64,000 nucleotides of DNA, from positions 1-64,000 of the forward strand of contig JAFGJO010000007.1 of NCBI GenBank assembly GCA_016929065.1, in the 5' to 3' direction. The notes under the pieces are model-generated. The model saw nothing but the letters and a program-made list of their open reading frames with translations, did no database searches and was not told the origin of the DNA. The stretch comes from Spirochaetales bacterium. Lineage in GTDB: Bacteria; Spirochaetota; Spirochaetia; SZUA-6; RPPD01. This document shows, in pieces, positions 5,715-57,107 of the stretch (positions are counted from its first letter, which is position 1; each line of letters opens with the position of its first letter). The translations under genes and the position numbers were made by a program.

Positions 5715-7206
5715 TATCAGGCGTTTTTCTGTAATCGGGGTCTGCCTGCTGTCGATAGCGTTCGCTTCATGCGCTTCCCTGTTGAATGCGGGCAATCCCC
5801 TGCAGGAAATTGTCATTGAATCATATTACCCGGGCGACCTTCCCATGTGGGAGCATATCACAAACAGCGGTCCCGCAATTGAGTTTGAAGATATTCCGCT
5901 CGGTGTCATCATTCCGCATCACGCGATTACCGCCACAGTGACGGCCCGGTTTTACCAGGGTATGGCAAAAAAAATCCAGCCGCAGACTGTTTTTATTCTT
6001 GCCCCCAACCACTTTGAAAGCGGAGAGACTGATATTATCAGCACCGCGACGGTCTGCTACAATACCGTTTACGGCAGGCTTGAAACCGACATGCAGTTTC
6101 CGGGGCTGCTTGCAGCCTCACAACTCGTTTCTTTGGACAGCCGGCCGTTTAACAGTGAACACGCCATTTTTTTTCATGCTCCGTTCATAAAAAAGTTTTT
6201 TCCAGATTCCAAGATTGTTCCGGTGATCATCAAATGGGATACGCCGAAAGAGAAACTGGAAGAGCTGAGCCGTGTCCTTGAAAACATCATTCTGCCCGAT
6301 GCGCTGGTGCTCGCCAGTGTTGATTTTTCCCATTACAACCGGCGTGAAACCGCGGATTTTCATGACCGGGCGTCATTCCGCACGATCTCGAATTTTGATG
6401 TTGACTCGCTGTTCTCGTTGGAGATTGATTCTCCGGCATCGGTATATGTTTTGGAGAAAATCATGGCAGCGCGGGGGTACCGGAAGGGTGTGCGGCTGTT
6501 TGAAACAAACAGTGAGGATTTTACAAAGAAGAGGGAAGAAGAGAGTACGAGTCATCAGTATTTTACGTTTTTCAAAGGAGAGCCGGAGTATAAAAAAGGC
6601 TTGACCATTCTGCTGAGCGGAAACATAAACGGGAAAAATGATTCACTGTATCTGTTTGACAAATGGCTCTGGGACAGGGCGTATGTGCCGGAGAAGGACT
6701 ATACCATCAAGCGGTTTTTGAAAAACATCCGGGGACAGGAAGACCGTTTTTTTATGGGAACCGATCTCTACATCTTTGACTGTGAACAGGAAGAAAAAGC
6801 ATATCGGTTTCAGAAAAACAGTGTGATTATACAGGTGATAAAATTCAGGGAAGGGGAGTTGTCGGATGCCGATTATTCACGGGTTATCAAAGCGCTGTCC
6901 GCTGGCTGCGACTGTCTTGTTGTGATCTACCAGTATGATTCAGGGAAACTTGCGTTTCCCGGGCAGAAAACTGCGGAAATGTTCGTTGACAATGGCGCTG
7001 ATATATTTCTGGGACGCGGCATACATGAACCAAAAGAACCAGAGCTGTACAAAGACGGGCTTGTTATTTATTCGGCCGGTGATTTTATTGAAGAAACAGG
7101 GCCTGCGGCCGGCATGATCGTGTATGTTGACTATACACCAAAGAAACTGTCCTGTGTAAAAGTGCCTGTCCGGGTAAGAAGCGGGTACCCTGAACTGGAT
7201 GAGTAA
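5689..7206 (+). CDS. lipoprotein with an N-terminal MEMO (AmmeMemoRadiSam B) domain and a CapA-like C-terminus
   Basis: 505 residues. The N-terminal signal has a lipobox (IAFASC, Cys ~28), so it is probably a membrane-anchored lipoprotein. Residues ~60-300 are a MEMO domain: PLGVIIPHHAI, FILAPNHF, EHAIFFHAPFIKKFF and ASVDFSHYN contain the His/Asp residues conserved in the family. The last ~130 residues resemble the end of CapA-type metallophosphatase-fold proteins (VVIYQYDSGKL, FVDNGADIFLGRGIHEPK, YKDGLVIYSAGDFI), although the usual GHHPH is GRGIHEP. MEMO proteins are related to extradiol dioxygenases, but their activity is unsettled. The ATG at 5689 lies inside the previous gene with no clear SD, so expression probably depends on coupling. 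Confidence 0.7.
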   Translation: MNGAGDAISIRRFSVIGVCLLSIAFASCASLLNAGNPLQEIVIESYYPGDLPMWEHITNSGPAIEFEDIPLGVIIPHHAITATVTARFYQGMAKKIQPQTVFILAPNHFESGETDIISTATVCYNTVYGRLETDMQFPGLLAASQLVSLDSRPFNSEHAIFFHAPFIKKFFPDSKIVPVIIKWDTPKEKLEELSRVLENIILPDALVLASVDFSHYNRRETADFHDRASFRTISNFDVDSLFSLEIDSPASVYVLEKIMAARGYRKGVRLFETNSEDFTKKREEESTSHQYFTFFKGEPEYKKGLTILLSGNINGKNDSLYLFDKWLWDRAYVPEKDYTIKRFLKNIRGQEDRFFMGTDLYIFDCEQEEKAYRFQKNSVIIQVIKFREGELSDADYSRVIKALSAGCDCLVVIYQYDSGKLAFPGQKTAEMFVDNGADIFLGRGIHEPKEPELYKDGLVIYSAGDFIEETGPAAGMIVYVDYTPKKLSCVKVPVRVRSGYPELDE

Positions 7207-7239
7207 TTGAGAGTTTAAAATAATTCCTGAGTGTTACGC

Positions 7240-7437
7240 TCAATCGCAGCGCATTTCATGGCCGCAATCAGCGCAGACAAACAACAAAACAACAGCGTCG
7301 TTTACCTGAACTCTGATATTGAAGCTCGAACATGCAGGGCATTGCAAAAGCGGGGTCAGCGAGCCTTCGGGAATATCTTTTCGGTAAAAGGAATGTGACC
7401 GTGAGGTAACTTCCTTTGTATAATTATTTGTATCCAT
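7240..7437 (-). CDS. small double-CxxC zinc-ribbon protein (copy B)
   Basis: 65 residues with two CxxC pairs, CPAC and CADC, separated by a hydrophobic beta-hairpin-like stretch (VQVNDAVVLLFV), ending CGHEMRCD. This is the layout of a zinc ribbon. AAAGGAGAG lies 7 nt before the ATG, so translation is well supported despite the size. It follows a close paralogue (7473-7706) on the same strand, 35 nt downstream. The two share the C-terminal half (LL-C..C....NI...V.DD...V..C..CG.EM). No function is known; proteins of this kind can bind nucleic acid or act as small regulatory partners. Confidence 0.7.
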   Translation of the reverse strand: MDTNNYTKEVTSRSHSFYRKDIPEGSLTPLLQCPACSSFNIRVQVNDAVVLLFVCADCGHEMRCD

Positions 7438-7472
7438 GAATTCTCTCCTTTCATGCTGTCAAACCGCATGAA

Positions 7473-7706
7473 TCAGTCTCCGTAGTGCATTTCCTGTCCG
7501 CATTCAAGACAGGTGACAACAAGAATCAGGTCATCAGTGATATCAATCTTGATGTTTCCGGTTCCGCATCCCGCGCAGCATAAAAGGGTTTTCATGCCTT
7601 CCGGAAAACAGGCTGTCCCGTCAAGAGTTTCGAACCATGAACCGGTTTCGGCAGAATGATGGCCGGATTGACTGTTTTTTTTGTTTGGAATAAAAACTGC
7701 ACTCAT
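7473..7706 (-). CDS. small double-CxxC zinc-ribbon protein (copy A)
   Basis: 77 residues, first gene of a two-gene operon with its paralogue at 7240-7437. Two pairs, CAGC and CLEC, flank NIKIDITDDLILVVT, and the protein ends CGQEMHYGD, closely matching the partner. A third Cys (LLCC) precedes the first pair. AAAGGAG sits 7 nt before the start at 7706. The N-terminal ~40 residues differ from the partner's and are polar (NSQSGHHSAETGSWF), suggesting a shared metal-binding half with divergent N-terminal tails. The function was not recognised. Confidence 0.7.
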   Translation of the reverse strand: MSAVFIPNKKNSQSGHHSAETGSWFETLDGTACFPEGMKTLLCCAGCGTGNIKIDITDDLILVVTCLECGQEMHYGD

Positions 7707-8051
7707 TTTTATCTCCTTTTATTTAAAATATGGATTTTTAAATAAATACTTTTTTCATAATTATAAAGTACGTGAACAAGGAGATTTTTGACATGTGCCT
7801 TTTGGCATGAATGAAAAATGATGGAAATGAAAAGAAAATTTCATGGAGAGGATGAAGGAGCAGCTGAAGAATTTCCGGGGAGTTTTGTAAAATAATTCCA
7901 GAAAGTATAAGACATACCGGGTATTTTCATTTATATTATAGAAACGGCTTGACAATTTCCGTATTAATAGAAAAGATGCATCCTGAACGGTTTTATACCG
8001 GTATTTTGCCTTTTGCCGGTTTCGGTGAAAGGATTGTGGAGTATTTTGACG
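7707..8051. other. 345-nt divergent intergenic region with a small hairpin
   Basis: A/T-rich spacer between the zinc-ribbon operon (minus) and a glycosyltransferase (plus). It contains the hairpin TGCCTTTTGGCA (~7797-7808), whose complement TGCCAAAAGGCA recurs at 38323-38334, and a -35-like TTGACA at 7949-7954 without a good -10. A 64-codon minus-strand ORF (7761-7955) has no SD and low-complexity F/S/H-rich content, so it is not called. Confidence 0.5.
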
Positions 8052-49703: not shown

Positions 49704-52136
49704 ATGAAGAACGACACACGCCGCCCTCACAACAACAAACCAACCGTTGCTTTTTGTATCCGGGGTATCGGCTCCGGAGCCGGTACGGAAATATGGAAAG
49801 GCATTACCTTCGCGGTGAAGAATGCCGACGCACATTTGATAACGCTGTACGGTGGAGTGCTGGGAAAAGCACAGGGAAATGTCATCTATGACTTTATTCA
49901 GAAAGGCAATGTTGACGGGGTCATTTCCTGGGCGTCATCAGACAACAATGAGTTTACGCGGTATTATGATAAATTTAGGGGAATTCCGCTGATTACCCTC
50001 TCTCTGCATTTGCCGGGGTATCCGTCAGTGAGCATTGATTCGTACAGCGGAATGAAAGCCGCGATGGATCATCTGACAAAAGATCACGGCTATAAAAAAA
50101 TCGCTTTTATCCGGGGCCCGGAACACCACATTTATGCGGTCGAACGGTTTCAGGCATATCTGGATTCCTTGAAGGAAAACAATATCCCCTATGATGAAAC
50201 GCTTGTTACTGATTTCGGCAATTTCCGGCCGGATGACGGGGTGAAGGCATATAAACAATTTATCCGGGACCAGAAACTGCAGCCGGGCAGGGATCTGGAG
50301 GCTGTTGTGGGGGTTTCGGACCAGAGTGTCGTCGCCTTTATGGAACTGGCAAAACAAGACGGGTACGATCTTCCCCGGGAGCTTGCTTTGACAGGATGCA
50401 ATTACTCGGATGCTGCAATTTCATCGGACCCGGGGATTACCAGTGTTTCCATGCCGTTTTTTGAGCAGGGAGTAAAGGCTGTGGAGCTGACCCTTGATAT
50501 GATTCAGGGCAGGCAAATACCGGAATCAACACTCCTTCCTGCGAAACTGGTAAAACTGCAGTCATGCGGGTGTACGCTTGTCGGTTCTGTGGTGCGGAAA
50601 AACCGGGAAGGGCAGCGCCTGTCTATTCTGAAAATATCAGCTAAAACGGCGGAACAGGATCTTCTTGACGAAACACAACAGCGGGAACTGCCCCAAAGGA
50701 TTGCAGACAGGGTTGCAGACAGGATTGAAAGCGTGGATATCAACCATTCCATGATTGAACAATACAGCCGTAAACTTGTTTACGCTTTTTGCAAGGCAGA
50801 CCCGGCAGAAGGCGAGCGTGAGTTTCTTGGAGCATTGGCCGCGGTGCTGCGGGCGACACTCCGGCAGGGGGGGCGGACTGATTCGTGGCATGAGATGCTG
50901 ACAATGCTTTCGGAGGCTGTCGGTCAAAGTGAAGCCCGGGCAGAAAATATTATCGAGGGCTTGCAGCGGCTTGAAAAGGGGCGGTTAATTGTAAGCGAGT
51001 ATGTAAAGCGTGAGTATTTCTCGATGTATGCGGATGCCGACTGGCGAATCAACCGGCTGCGCGACATATCGGCACGGATGTTTGAGGCGGGTTCACTCGA
51101 ACAGCTGGAGCAGGTACTTGCTTCAAGGATTTTTCCGTTCGGAATTAACGGGTATTTTGTCTGTTTATATAAAAATCCCGTTTCATACACATTCATGGAC
51201 CCTCTGCCGGAAATATCAACTCTTGTCATGGGAAAACTCGCGGAAGGAGCATGCACTTCAGCAGAGGGAGTCGGCAGCGAGTTTTGCACCGCCATGATAC
51301 TGCCCGATGCCCTGATACAAAAAATCGGAACACTCAATATTCTTGTGCTGCCGCTTTTTCAGCAGGATGTCCAGATTGGATACATTATTCTGAAAGACAC
51401 ACCGATACGAAACCATATGTACCAGATGTTTGGAGACCTGCTTTCAAGCAGTATACACAATATCAATCTCTTTCGTGAAATCGAAGGAGTGAAACGCGAA
51501 CTGGAAAAGACATTGGTTCTTCTTAAAAACAAGGCGGGGATCATCTCTGGAAACAGCCGCGATATCAGCACCCGGGTAAATGAAATTTCCCGGGCAACCG
51601 GCGAATCAGCACTTCATATCAGCGAAATCTCGGAGAATATTTCCCGAGTATTGAGTATTACCAGGGAAGCAGTAACGCTCGGCGGCAAGGTAAACTCGCT
51701 GATTTCCACCTTGAGAGACCAGTCCCTGAAGATTGGAAGTTTCTCTGATGTCATCTTTGATATTGCCCAGCAGACTAATGTTCTTTCGATTAATGCGGCG
51801 ATCGAATCAGCACGGGCAGGGGATATGGGCCGGGGATTTGCAATCGTCGCCCGCGAGATCAAGGAGCTTTCCCGGAAAACCGTTGTTTCAACAGAGGATA
51901 TAAACCAGATGATCGCACTCATCCAGGAGAGCACAAATACAACAGTCCGGCAGCTTGAAAGCATGATAAACATAGTGGAGACCATCTCGGACCATTCGCA
52001 GACGATTACCGATGCGATTCAGAAACAGTCACAAAGCATTACCAGTATCTCGGGGCTTTTATCCGAGGCCGCAAAAGGCTCTGACGATATTGCACGGGAA
52101 ATATCCGATGTTGCACGCGTCGGCGGGGACGCGTAG
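49704..52136 (+). CDS. soluble chemoreceptor with a LacI-type sugar-binding sensor
   Basis: 810 residues with no signal peptide and no membrane helix. Residues ~10-310 are a LacI/GalR-type periplasmic-binding-like domain (KPTVAFCIRGIGSGAGTEIW, VDGVISWASSDNNEF, VSIDSYSGMKAAMDHLTKDH, LALTGCNYSDAAISSDPGIT), lacking the HTH, and it ends near LQSCGC. A helical/GAF-like region (~430-600, WRINRLRDISARMFEAGSLE) leads to an MCP signalling hairpin (~610-800) with the highly conserved tip IFDIAQQTNVLSINAAIESA, then RAGDMGRGFAIVAREIKEL. It would sense a cytosolic ligand, probably a sugar or derivative, and control CheA. The SD is weak. Confidence 0.92.
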   Translation: MKNDTRRPHNNKPTVAFCIRGIGSGAGTEIWKGITFAVKNADAHLITLYGGVLGKAQGNVIYDFIQKGNVDGVISWASSDNNEFTRYYDKFRGIPLITLSLHLPGYPSVSIDSYSGMKAAMDHLTKDHGYKKIAFIRGPEHHIYAVERFQAYLDSLKENNIPYDETLVTDFGNFRPDDGVKAYKQFIRDQKLQPGRDLEAVVGVSDQSVVAFMELAKQDGYDLPRELALTGCNYSDAAISSDPGITSVSMPFFEQGVKAVELTLDMIQGRQIPESTLLPAKLVKLQSCGCTLVGSVVRKNREGQRLSILKISAKTAEQDLLDETQQRELPQRIADRVADRIESVDINHSMIEQYSRKLVYAFCKADPAEGEREFLGALAAVLRATLRQGGRTDSWHEMLTMLSEAVGQSEARAENIIEGLQRLEKGRLIVSEYVKREYFSMYADADWRINRLRDISARMFEAGSLEQLEQVLASRIFPFGINGYFVCLYKNPVSYTFMDPLPEISTLVMGKLAEGACTSAEGVGSEFCTAMILPDALIQKIGTLNILVLPLFQQDVQIGYIILKDTPIRNHMYQMFGDLLSSSIHNINLFREIEGVKRELEKTLVLLKNKAGIISGNSRDISTRVNEISRATGESALHISEISENISRVLSITREAVTLGGKVNSLISTLRDQSLKIGSFSDVIFDIAQQTNVLSINAAIESARAGDMGRGFAIVAREIKELSRKTVVSTEDINQMIALIQESTNTTVRQLESMINIVETISDHSQTITDAIQKQSQSITSISGLLSEAAKGSDDIAREISDVARVGGDA

Positions 52137-53447: not shown

Positions 53448-54086
53448 TCAATCCGAAAGCATGACATTTTCCATATCGCCGACAAAAAACTCAAGAAACC
53501 TTTTGGTATTTGTATAATTCTTTTCCGTTAATTGCGGAGTAATTTCGGCAAGCCATTTTTTGACCGCTGTTTTGGTAAATTTGTTTTTCAAATAATAACA
53601 GGAACAGATATTGTACAGAATAAGTTTGACTGCTCCAAACAACTGGTTCATCACGATATTCTCGCCACGGATTTCATACAGTTCTTTTTCGCAGTCACTG
53701 AACAGGTTGTCAAAAGCGTTACCGGGTTTTGAAAAGGCCTCTGTGAATTTCTCCAGCTTCCTGCAATATCCCCTGTTTGTATCACGGACAGCCCTGTCAA
53801 CCGGAAAATTGCTGGAGACAAGATCACAAAAAAGCAATGCATATTGCGGTAGATCACCCGGTTCGTGTTGTAACGGGTGCGTTGAAGCCGTGTCAATTTT
53901 TTCTGTAAGACAGCTGAAAGCTTCATCATAATGCTGTTTCAGTTTTTTGAACAGCTTTTCGCCGTTCTCAAGTTTTCCTGTATCGGGGTGACATTCCCGT
54001 GCGAGCTGCCAGAAGATTATTTTTAATTCGTGTTGGCTTGCAATTTTATTTTTATCAACAAGATTCAAAAATGGATTCATGGACAT
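53448..54086 (-). CDS. J-domain-containing protein
   Basis: 212 residues. The N-terminal ~65 residues resemble a J domain: KIIFWQLARECHPDTG contains the essential HPD, and a helix III-like LFKKLKQHYDEAFSCL follows, though helix I is weak. No Gly/Phe or zinc-finger region follows, so it is not a standard DnaJ. The remaining 145 residues are helical with several Cys (NICSCYYLK) and no recognised domain. It would stimulate a DnaK partner for a specialised client. It lies downstream of the AraC gene with a 61-nt gap. Confidence 0.75.
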   Translation of the reverse strand: MSMNPFLNLVDKNKIASQHELKIIFWQLARECHPDTGKLENGEKLFKKLKQHYDEAFSCLTEKIDTASTHPLQHEPGDLPQYALLFCDLVSSNFPVDRAVRDTNRGYCRKLEKFTEAFSKPGNAFDNLFSDCEKELYEIRGENIVMNQLFGAVKLILYNICSCYYLKNKFTKTAVKKWLAEITPQLTEKNYTNTKRFLEFFVGDMENVMLSD

Positions 54087-54147: not shown

Positions 54148-54954
54148 TTATCCCTCCATTTTCCTGCGGTATTCCTGCGGAGTGCAGAGCATAATTTTTT
54201 TGAATGAACGGTTAAAGAAAGAGATATTGTTGTAACCGGAATCGTATGCGATGTCTGTGACAGACCTGCCGGTCTGCTTGAGCAGCATGCACGCATTCTG
54301 AATGCGCAGCCGGTTGACGTATTCAAAAAGGCAGGTCCCGGTTTTGTTTTTAAAAAAGCGGGAAAGATATGACGGGCTGTATCCAAGGTCATTTGCCATG
54401 TGTTCAAGCGTCACCGGCTGGAGGCAGTTGGCTTTCAGGTACTCGATGACGCTGTCAATCTGTGCAGCCGCATTCCCGATATCCGCACTGCCCGATACAG
54501 AACCTGTCAGCCGCAGGCAGCGAATGCAGAGCTCGGTGAGTTTTATTAAAATAATATCCTGATACCCGTTTGGTTTGTAACGATATTCATCCATGAGTTC
54601 GCCGGCCAGAGAAGTGAAAATGGCTAATGACTTTAAGGGAACCGGAAAAAACACAATGCCGGCTTTTCTGCCGGAAAAAATGGATGTATCACGGAGACGC
54701 TCCTGCAGATGATCAATGATGCGGCTGCCGAGGATTATGTGTGTCCCTGCTGTTTGTTTCTCCGCCCGCAGCTGGATTCCTTTTTCGGGCGGAATGAACA
54801 GCATCCCCGGCGCCTCCAGTATGGTTATACCCCCGGAATATTTATAAAACAGTTTTTCCGACTGAAGAAAAAATATCTGCCAGTTGATGTTGAGAAACAT
54901 GCCGGGAAGAGCGGTGGATGCTGGCTGTATCTCAAAGGGGAAGAGGGTATTCAT
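54148..54954 (-). CDS. AraC-family transcriptional regulator
   Basis: 268 residues. An N-terminal cupin-like sensor (~1-150; IFFLQSEKLFYKYSGGITIL) precedes the AraC DNA-binding domain: VTLEHMANDLGYSPSYLSRF (first HTH), then GRSVTDIAYDSGYNNISFFN (second HTH) and the terminal signature CTPQEYRRKMEG. GAGGG lies ~7 nt before the ATG. It follows the FliM-FliG fusion gene with only a 14-nt gap, so it is cotranscribed with the switch-like proteins and may control them. Confidence 0.92.
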   Translation of the reverse strand: MNTLFPFEIQPASTALPGMFLNINWQIFFLQSEKLFYKYSGGITILEAPGMLFIPPEKGIQLRAEKQTAGTHIILGSRIIDHLQERLRDTSIFSGRKAGIVFFPVPLKSLAIFTSLAGELMDEYRYKPNGYQDIILIKLTELCIRCLRLTGSVSGSADIGNAAAQIDSVIEYLKANCLQPVTLEHMANDLGYSPSYLSRFFKNKTGTCLFEYVNRLRIQNACMLLKQTGRSVTDIAYDSGYNNISFFNRSFKKIMLCTPQEYRRKMEG

Positions 54955-54968
54955 GAATCATCATACCC

Positions 54969-56594
54969 TCAGGATCCCTTTGTTTTTTCTGACATGTTTT
55001 TTACGACTTCCTGTAACATGACAGGATTGCTTTTTGTCATGGCATCGAGTAAATACTCTTCTGTCTTTTTCGGCATTGTCTTGAGCATCTCTGCCAGATG
55101 TCCGGGGCCGCCCTCAAATTCCATGGCAGTGGCTTTTGCCGTTTCAAACCTCCGTTTGATAACCCGTGAGACAGCCTCGATCACATTTAGCGCAACCGGT
55201 TTTATCTCGGCGATGCGGACTGCAATATCAGCCTGAAATTCTTTCGGGATAAAGGGGAGGACGCCGGCGGCAACAAGCGGGTCGATATGGGAGAGTACCA
55301 GTGCAATGATTTGGGGATGCTCATGTACCAGAAAGTTTGCCAATAGTTCCCGTTCTATTTGAGCAGCAAACTGGAGCGGCTGGCTGGTTTGAACCGGTTC
55401 TTCAATATTGTTTTGGGCAGTACCAAAGAAAAGCTGGTCGGTCAATTCGGTCTGCCGTGCCGACAATTCGCTTAATTTGTTTTCAATTTTCTGCATTGAC
55501 TCTTTGATCGTTTTCCCAAAACGGAAAAGTACTTCATCGGAAGCTGCAGTATCTTTTTGCTCAGATTTCTCATCGGCATGTTCAAAATCGGCAATTGTTT
55601 CATCCCAAATATTGGAAACAATAAACTCATTGTGCTTTCCGGTTTTTTTCGGCACAAGCGGCAATACAGTCTGATTGCCGCATTCAAGACATGCTGTCCC
55701 CGCATCCAGCCCGCTGATTGCAACAAGACTTCCTTTTTTAAGCTCCTGCAGACGCTGCAGGGAAATATCATCGGTACTGTAATACAGCGCAGCGGGTACC
55801 TTAAACCGTGTCGTCCATGCAAGATTTTTATCGAGTTCTTCCTTGTACATTTCCCTGCGCGGAGAAGAATACCAGTATTGGGCGTTCAGTTTGTAAATGA
55901 TCGGCTCGATGGTGAGAAAGGGGATACAGAAATTCATGAATCCCCTGGCATCGCCGATGATGCATTGGAAGGTGACCAGCACGATCATTTCATGGGGTGG
56001 AACAATCTGGCAGAAGGCGGGATTTGTATCCAGCGCGCCCAGCCGCGGATGCAAATCAAGGACAGTAGACCATGCATCGCGGAGATTTTTCAGGAGCCGC
56101 AGGTACACTTCTTCTATAATGCCTGATTCACAGTCGGTAAGATCTTTTTGCTGTGAGACCGGTGTGGCGGACCTGCCCCCTGCAAGAAGTTCAATAAACG
56201 CGCTGCTTAGATCCGGGTCCATCTGGAGCAGGGCGCTCCCTTTCAGCGGGTCCATATTAATAATACCCAGTGTCGAGGGAGCGGGTGTTGAACGAATCGC
56301 CTCGTCATAGGTCATTTGATCCACACTGCCGACTTTGATATGGCAATCAGTCTTGCACATGCCGGAAAGCAGAATAGTGGAGCTGCGGGCAAATGACTCA
56401 TGGATTATGGAGAGGGTTCGCAGCTGGTCGCGGGAAAACTTGTCCGGCCGGCGGAAATCATATTTCTTTACTTTTATCTCACGGTCCGCCGCGTGGTTTG
56501 AGGCGACAATATCCTTCGCCTTCCATGTCCCAATGACATACAGTCCGTCAACTTCGGGGAATATTTCATCAGTCTTTGTTTCTTTGTCGGACAT
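54969..56594 (-). CDS. FliM fused to the FliG middle domain
   Basis: 541 residues, far longer than FliM (~340). FliM part: KKYDFRRPDKFSRDQLRTLS (41-60) with HESFAR after it, IINMDPLKGSALLQMDPDL (111-129) and LLAGG, then a SpoA domain (~255-335, LAWTTRFKVPAALYYSTDDI). A charged coiled linker spans ~340-400. FliG part: ELLANFLVHEHPQIIALVLS has the EHPQ motif (425-428) that in FliG binds FliM, then FIPKEFQADIAVRIAEIKPV, and the Gly-Gly region FEGGPGHLAEMLKTMP. It stops before the FliG C-terminal torque domain. The N-terminal LSQxEIDALL CheY-docking peptide of FliM is absent. Cotranscribed with two FliN-like genes. Confidence 0.88.
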   Translation of the reverse strand: MSDKETKTDEIFPEVDGLYVIGTWKAKDIVASNHAADREIKVKKYDFRRPDKFSRDQLRTLSIIHESFARSSTILLSGMCKTDCHIKVGSVDQMTYDEAIRSTPAPSTLGIINMDPLKGSALLQMDPDLSSAFIELLAGGRSATPVSQQKDLTDCESGIIEEVYLRLLKNLRDAWSTVLDLHPRLGALDTNPAFCQIVPPHEMIVLVTFQCIIGDARGFMNFCIPFLTIEPIIYKLNAQYWYSSPRREMYKEELDKNLAWTTRFKVPAALYYSTDDISLQRLQELKKGSLVAISGLDAGTACLECGNQTVLPLVPKKTGKHNEFIVSNIWDETIADFEHADEKSEQKDTAASDEVLFRFGKTIKESMQKIENKLSELSARQTELTDQLFFGTAQNNIEEPVQTSQPLQFAAQIERELLANFLVHEHPQIIALVLSHIDPLVAAGVLPFIPKEFQADIAVRIAEIKPVALNVIEAVSRVIKRRFETAKATAMEFEGGPGHLAEMLKTMPKKTEEYLLDAMTKSNPVMLQEVVKNMSEKTKGS

Positions 56595-56607
56595 ATTTTA
56601 CTCCTTG

Positions 56608-56838
56608 CTATTTGAGCACTTTTGTAATTCGAATACCGAAATTTTCGTCGATGATGACCACTTCGCCTTTTGCGATTTTTTCGCCCGCGGCGACAAGGTC
56701 AACCGGCTCTCCTGCAAAACTTTTCAATTCGACAATAGTCCCTTCCTTGATGGTGGAAAGAGCCATCACACTTACCTCTGTTTCTCCCAGGACAACCTGT
56801 AATGGTATTTTAACATCCAAGAGCGGTCCGCTTTTCAT
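56608..56838 (-). CDS. fliN: minimal FliN-like SpoA-domain protein
   Basis: 76 residues, only the SpoA (FliN C-terminal) domain: LLDVKIPLQVVLGETEVSVM, TIKEGTIVELKSFAGEPVDL, AAGEKIAKGEVVIIDENFGI and RITKVLK. Canonical FliN has a further N-terminal segment and is ~110-130 residues. It would form the base of a flagellar-type C-ring with FliM. It starts with a 4-nt overlap with the preceding SpoA gene and is 13 nt before the FliM-FliG gene, so all three are made from one mRNA. Confidence 0.85.
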   Translation of the reverse strand: MKSGPLLDVKIPLQVVLGETEVSVMALSTIKEGTIVELKSFAGEPVDLVAAGEKIAKGEVVIIDENFGIRITKVLK

Positions 56839-57107
56839 TGTGCTGCCTCCTGTACTGTATTGCAGATTTCAGTGACTTTAAAGAAAAACCCTTTTCTCTT
56901 CTTCACAATTATCCCTCTGGCCAAAACCTTGCCGTTTACCTCAAAATCACAGGGCCCCGTATTTCCCCTTACGACATAATTTTCGTTTTTCTGGATATCA
57001 CGGATATCCGCAGAACTCATGCAGGTCCGGTGGAATACCACCCGGCCGGGAAGCTTTATTTTCTTTGCCAGTGCTGATTCTTTGAAGAATAATTCATAAT
57101 CATCCAT
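56835..57107 (-). CDS. second FliN-like SpoA protein, divergent
   Basis: 90 residues. It resembles a SpoA domain with altered core: LPGRVVFHRTCMSSADIRDI, NYVVRGNTGPCDFEVNGKVL, ARGIIVKKRKGFFFKVTEIC. The VNGKVLARG turn corresponds to the conserved V-N-G-x-x-x-A-x-G of FliN/SctQ. Three Cys are present. First gene of the operon, overlapping the next by 4 nt. It might substitute for FliY or a second FliN in a heteromeric switch, or form a separate ring. Confidence 0.75.
   Translation of the reverse strand: MDDYELFFKESALAKKIKLPGRVVFHRTCMSSADIRDIQKNENYVVRGNTGPCDFEVNGKVLARGIIVKKRKGFFFKVTEICNTVQEAAQ

Follow-up and report, generated by a model that had tools for sequence, protein, structure and literature searches.

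Introduction

Cryo-EM of the flagellar C-ring has given a FliG:FliM:FliN ratio of 1:1:3, with the N-terminal domain of FliG sitting on FliF and linking the two proteins (PMC11528121). The charges of FliG that interact with the stator are R281 and D288/D289 (PMC11528121; PMC7564593). In spirochaetes, chemotaxis signalling does not account for the difference in rotation between the cell ends (reviewed in PMC7225975). We found no description of a natural FliM-FliG fusion in the open-licence full text available in PMC; the term "FliMG" in PMC9665402 is the name of a mutation (fliM G297T), not of a fusion.

We analyse here such a fusion, encoded in a stretch of 64,000 nucleotides from a Spirochaetales bacterium (contig JAFGJO010000007.1), hereafter the window. 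A preliminary description, made from the sequence alone, had recognised the fusion and two small genes next to it; it had missed an AraC-type gene that completes the cassette as its fourth constant member, and from the window alone it could not reveal that relatives retain the torque domain in eroded form.

A FliM-FliG fusion encoded with two small SpoA genes and an AraC-type gene

The features are as follows, all on the minus strand.

54148..54954 (-): AraC-type transcription regulator, 268 aa, fourth cassette member (HTH_18, 1.2e-23)
54969..56594 (-): FliM-FliG fusion protein, 541 aa (ORF, Pfam, TIGR, phmmer, AlphaFold2, Foldseek)
54993..55382 (-): FliG middle domain and ARM-C segment, fusion residues 405-534 (Pfam, phmmer, TIGR00207)
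55311..55322 (-): EHPQ motif, residues 425-428, the FliM-binding site of FliG (sequence, alignments)
55425..55556 (-): long linker helix, residues 347-390 (AlphaFold2 secondary structure, alignment A5)
55590..55832 (-): SpoA-like region, apparently degenerate, about residues 255-335 (partial TIGR01397, low AlphaFold2 confidence)
55887..56462 (-): FliM middle domain, residues 45-236 (Pfam FliM, AlphaFold2, Foldseek)
56608..56838 (-): SpoA2, 76-aa FliN-type SpoA protein (FliMN_C, TIGR02480)
56835..57107 (-): SpoA1, 90-aa divergent FliN/SpoA-type protein, first cassette gene (FliMN_C, relatives)

The fusion is a single open reading frame with no internal stops. Its residues 45-236 match Pfam FliM (9e-62); the score with PF02154, the FliM middle domain, is 208.8 bits against a cut-off of 27, and that with TIGR01397 (fliM) is 221 against 219.6. 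The TIGR01397 match reaches residue 293 and is partial over the SpoA-like region, where Pfam FliMN_C (SpoA) gave no match. We built an AlphaFold2 model from 26 sequences (pTM 0.55 as a whole), in which the FliM middle domain has a pLDDT of mostly about 90 and the FliG helices are also confident, with low confidence across the SpoA-like region. Because FliMN_C does not match and the model is of low confidence there, this region, located at the place of the FliM SpoA domain, is best regarded as degenerate. Of the middle and SpoA domains first assigned to the FliM part, the middle domain thus stands and the SpoA domain does so only in part.

According to the predicted secondary structure, the long helix joins the SpoA-like region to the FliG part; its residue Q381 is invariant in the seven fusions of alignment A5, and the gap between the SpoA-like part and FliG_M is only about 65 residues. 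Residues 417-487 match Pfam FliG_M (4.3e-21), and comparison by phmmer with solved FliG structures (1lkv, 4fhr_B) gave a match over residues 405-534. The EHPQ motif is intact (E425-H426-P427-Q428). When the model was searched with Foldseek, its FliM middle domain matched FliM with a TM of up to 0.97 (target-normalised); its FliG middle domain resembled 4fq0_C, from an H. pylori FliG-FliM crystal, with a TM of 0.91. Pfam and Foldseek hence confirm that FliM and FliG_M are joined in one protein with EHPQ intact, and the possibility, raised beforehand, that the FliG_M-like part is an ordinary helical tail is excluded, as Pfam, phmmer and Foldseek all match FliG.

The FliG_C torque domain is absent from the window's fusion as judged by Pfam and by phmmer, whose match comprises FliG_M and ARM-C only; the TIGR00207 (fliG) match stops at profile position 238 of 338. 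Pfam did not detect the N-terminal FliF-binding domain of FliG either, the sole FliG_N match being below cut-off (E 0.039) and lying over the middle and ARM helices (residues 427-523). The N-terminal CheY-binding motif is likewise absent from this copy.

Upstream of the fusion, SpoA2 matches FliMN_C (1.1e-19; 70.5 bits against a Pfam cut-off of 23.8) and TIGR02480 (4.9e-21; 74.4 bits, below that model's cut-off of 84.05). Its best-matching models are FliY and FliN, and it is 50-61% identical to three relatives. For SpoA1, the FliMN_C match (4e-4; 20.7 bits) is under the Pfam cut-off (23.8), and the AlphaFold2 model, of low confidence (pLDDT 56), adds little; the gene recurs 5' of SpoA2 in every relative with a complete locus. 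The two reading frames overlap by 4 nt (ATGA). The AraC gene starts 14 bases past the fusion stop codon, and no FliG_C remnants were found downstream of that stop in the window. A scan for promoters and terminators gave matches no more numerous than in shuffles.

Other genes lie near the cassette. Positions 49704-52136 (+) of the window encode an 810-aa chemoreceptor-like protein that combines a ligand-binding domain of the LacI type with an MCP signalling domain. J-domain-like proteins adjoin the AraC gene in the window (53448-54086, -) and in locus L047 (4492-5313, -), both from carriers of family f1; they were not seen near the other cassettes.

Patchy conservation of the cassette among spirochaetes

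A profile built from the seven fusions in A5 was run against 393 genomes from the phylum, 395 from the class and 23 from family f4, and a scan of named genome contigs supplemented this search. At least about 25 Spirochaetota genomes, spread over 11 families (f1, f4, f13, f19, f32, f36, f62, f63, f64, f69 and f70), contain full-length fusions, counts that are lower bounds, as three candidates were scored per genome in the large searches, at a strict E-value. Phyla beyond Spirochaetota were covered by the named-contig scan, among the matches listed. The distribution is patchy, with carriers amounting to 9 of the 23 genomes in family f4. The named carriers (JAFGRV010000203.1, JAPLSM010000212.1, JAHIWG010000027.1) are MAGs of environmental spirochaetes, and the cassette belongs to a group of free-living spirochaetes. 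The fusion is thus a conserved orthologue, one of the options considered beforehand, within a patchy set; that it was a known one was not borne out by open-licence papers. An assembly artefact was considered and rejected, since the same fusion occurs in about 25 genomes. Genome G502 has two diverged copies of the whole cassette, on contigs C176 and C209 (loci L201 and L209).

The gene order SpoA1-SpoA2-fusion is kept in all 16 loci of a first set (the window and 15 relatives). The two small FliN-type genes overlapping by 4 nt, as initially reported for the window, are found throughout this set (ATGA, 16/16), and a further overlap into the fusion is usual. In each of the 14 first-set loci whose flanks are long enough, an AraC-type gene adjoins the cassette on the same strand; it stands 3' of the other genes in 4 loci and 5' of them in 10. 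SpoA1, SpoA2 and AraC recur in every one of ten additional unique loci, with the SpoA genes overlapping or standing up to about 10 bases apart. Overall, AraC adjacency holds for 24 of 24 copies with enough flank; the same AraC profile was found within 3 kb of canonical fliM in 0 of 66 loci. No other gene family is common to the cassette loci at a comparable level. As the AraC gene has switched sides and yet stayed adjacent, these data argue for a functional link between it and the cassette. Loci L196 and L198 are the same as L053 and L054 and were dropped from the counts.

Locus L053 also contains, at 6977-7720 (+) and 3.4 kb from the cassette AraC gene, a 247-aa protein that appears to combine a MotA cytoplasmic fragment (MotA models, 6e-20, residues 16-80) with FliG_C (7e-22, residues 140-241). 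This apparent stator-rotor hybrid is related to the Leptospira LIC10244 family.

History of the fused domains

When 16 fusions are compared with 12 FliG proteins, their FliG parts group together (support 90/99). The FliM parts lie mostly apart from canonical FliM, on very long branches, and do not form one clade; a single clade was rejected under the model used (p-AU 0.003), a rejection that the long branches make unsafe. The fused FliM copies of G013, L054 and L166 are placed among canonical FliM. In genome G013 (L048, L137), the fused FliM groups with the canonical FliM of its own genome (100/94), a placement that points to gene conversion or to an independent fusion. Two histories are possible: one fusion event, with rapid evolution and local gene conversion thereafter, or repeated fusion.

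Contact residues of the fusions

A clear CheY-binding motif is present in one of 16 fusions (L054, LTKEDVDGLL), and a loose match in L047; with a loose pattern, 119 of 120 canonical FliM proteins have this N-terminal motif. Its clear retention in L054 points to an ordinary FliM as the ancestor of the fusion. A free-standing, divergent FliM paralogue of 344 aa without the usual CheY-binding N-terminus is encoded in locus L020 (genome G087; 1429-2463, +).

The FliF-binding N-domain of FliG is missing, by Pfam, from the window's fusion and from the relatives scanned. FliG_C was found in all six relatives scanned with Pfam; its absence, correctly noted before for the window copy, is peculiar to that copy. 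We compared the torque residues in 26 unique FliG_C-bearing fusions, two duplicate loci being excluded. Numbering follows what we take to be the E. coli FliG sequence, and the numbered residues came out right in the alignment. K264 is kept in 25/26 and R297 in 24/26. For the stator-contact residues the counts are 1/26 (R281), 6/26 (D288) and 8/26 (D289), and no fusion combines R281, D288 and D289 (0/26), whereas all 10 canonical FliG proteins of the same phylum do. We read these counts as erosion of the stator-contact charges in the relatives and as deletion of the whole domain in the window copy. Judged by their sequences, the fusions appear to have lost the torque-making parts.

Signature residues of FliM (in YDFxRPDK, VDQxT, IVPPxEM and others) persist in 15 or all of the 16 fusions, and E125 and Q128 of EHPQ are nearly invariant. 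The GGXG motif of FliM is degenerate in many fusions: GG is mostly kept alongside EHPQ and altered where EHPQ has become ERxQ, a pattern that may reflect one or two events. It at most hints that a FliM-FliG_M contact has been preserved. Out of the 146 FliM positions that canonical proteins conserve, the fusions keep 52-124 (91 in the window copy).

Canonical flagellar genes in the same genome

The source genome (3.49 Mb, 69 contigs, 96% complete) contains, outside the cassette, the following genes.

Contig C60, 139.7k: canonical fliM
Contig C60, 141.5k: FliY/FliN
Contig C60, 129.5k: fliG
Contig C14, 49.3k: second fliG, free-standing

The separate fliM, fliN and fliG which the preliminary description proposed to look for are thus present, and canonical fliM and fliG likewise occur in the other carriers examined. 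The source genome encodes one FliF (MS ring) and one FlhA (export gate); no additional MS ring or export gate for the cassette to serve was found in it. As canonical fliM, fliY/fliN and two fliG genes accompany a single fliF and a single flhA, the fusion module is auxiliary to a complete canonical switch and not a minimal C-ring. Of the simplified or auxiliary C-ring envisaged at the outset, the auxiliary version stands and the simplified replacement does not; a FliM/FliN ring for a second secretion machine is unlikely with only one FliF and one FlhA.

Candidate functions of the cassette

The conserved cassette suggests an add-on, regulated at the gene level, by which the motor would be modified or uncoupled. 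We tentatively favour an accessory C-ring module under its own AraC-type regulator, in which a self-paired FliM-FliG subunit with two FliN-like SpoA partners, CheY-blind and torque-dead, would dope or cap the C-ring. The regulator would control the cassette, and the tethered FliG_M would fill the FliG site of its own FliM, leaving the subunit unable to recruit normal FliG. SpoA1 and SpoA2 would complete a FliN-like base. Once expressed, the subunit would enter or cap the single C-ring as a CheY-blind, torque-dead position and lower torque, or lock or uncouple the motor, acting as a clutch or brake derived from a rotor paralogue. The loss of FliG_C in the window genome would be the end-point of the same erosion trend. 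As the fusions evolve fast, with 52-124 of 146 positions kept, co-assembly with canonical FliM may have been lost. More doubtful is the wider proposal that AraC-induced, self-paired FliM-FliG subunits form a dedicated, transcriptionally switched rotor-remodelling system, by which selected motors would no longer respond to CheY or take up stator torque.

The main rival, which we hold to be somewhat unlikely, is a cytosolic FliM/FliN-type scaffold outside the flagellum that signals to the AraC regulator, or is controlled together with it, as a partner-switch or sensory complex. The AraC gene staying adjacent on either side of the operon, the loss of CheY, stator and FliF contacts alike, and the fast divergence of the fusions would all suit such a scaffold. 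It accords less well with the conservation of the E and Q of EHPQ at the FliM-FliG interface and of the FliM core motifs, with the canonical fliM and fliG of the carriers examined, and with the lack of any other conserved partner gene near the cassettes. A role in export or basal-body assembly unrelated to torque, with a FliN-type affinity site for FliH or substrates, is improbable: conservation is strongest in SpoA2, the FliN-type domain, and FliN-type assemblies belong to the sorting platform of flagella and injectisomes (PMC4443714), but the fused and retained FliG middle domain and the AraC linkage would be left unexplained.

It is very unlikely that the cassette encodes a complete alternative rotor which replaces normal FliM/FliG in some condition and still drives rotation. 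Relatives do retain FliG_M and FliG_C with K264 and R297, and two FliN-type partners are at hand; such a rotor would nevertheless lack the FliG N-domain for FliF and the CheY site, its R281 and D288/D289 are eroded, and the window copy has no torque domain at all. We give equally little credence to a decaying paralogue, with the FliG_C loss marking a pseudogene in the making. The long branches, the patchy distribution and the confinement of that loss to the window genome could be taken in this sense; the four open reading frames are nonetheless intact, order, spacing and EHPQ are preserved, 541 codons stay open despite deep divergence, and the AraC gene follows 14 bases past the fusion stop, without any FliG_C remnant.

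Comparison with known systems

Known flagellar clutches and brakes, EpsE and YcgR, are unrelated proteins that bind the rotor. If the accessory-module reading is true, evolution would here have made a clutch or brake out of the rotor, enclosing the FliM-FliG interface in a single chain and removing both CheY input and stator output, and nature would have provided a test of the importance of individual rotor contacts. For the unequal rotation at the cell ends, a CheY-blind accessory switch is a testable candidate in carrier lineages; rotor remodelling could work like a clutch, or could make the flagellar bundles at opposite cell ends behave unequally.

The cassette shares with the canonical FliG/FliM/FliN switch the FliM middle domain, the FliG middle domain with EHPQ and FliN-type SpoA proteins. 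It differs from that switch in having FliM and FliG in one chain, without the CheY motif and the FliG N-domain, with torque charges eroded or the domain absent; moreover, it is linked to AraC and stands beside a canonical set. As with FliG1/FliG2 of spirochaetes (PMC7225975), a second, specialised switch paralogue accompanies the main one; FliG1, however, is a whole, free-standing FliG, whereas the cassette encodes a FliM-FliG fusion with its own SpoA partners. The C-ring of Campylobacter jejuni, with FliM, FliN and FliY, has likewise gained components by duplication and divided labour, and neither a FliM-FliG fusion nor an AraC cassette is reported in the abstract of that account (PMC6946799). 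SpoA1 and SpoA2 are small SpoA modules like those of FliY/FliN and SctQ (Spa33), but they are encoded by two one-domain genes, translationally coupled and tied to the fusion. The Leptospira LIC10244 family, which is up-regulated in connection with PerRA/PerRB, represents another rotor-type hybrid of spirochaetes; it contains neither FliM nor SpoA, and its relative near the cassette in L053 was not found near the cassette elsewhere.
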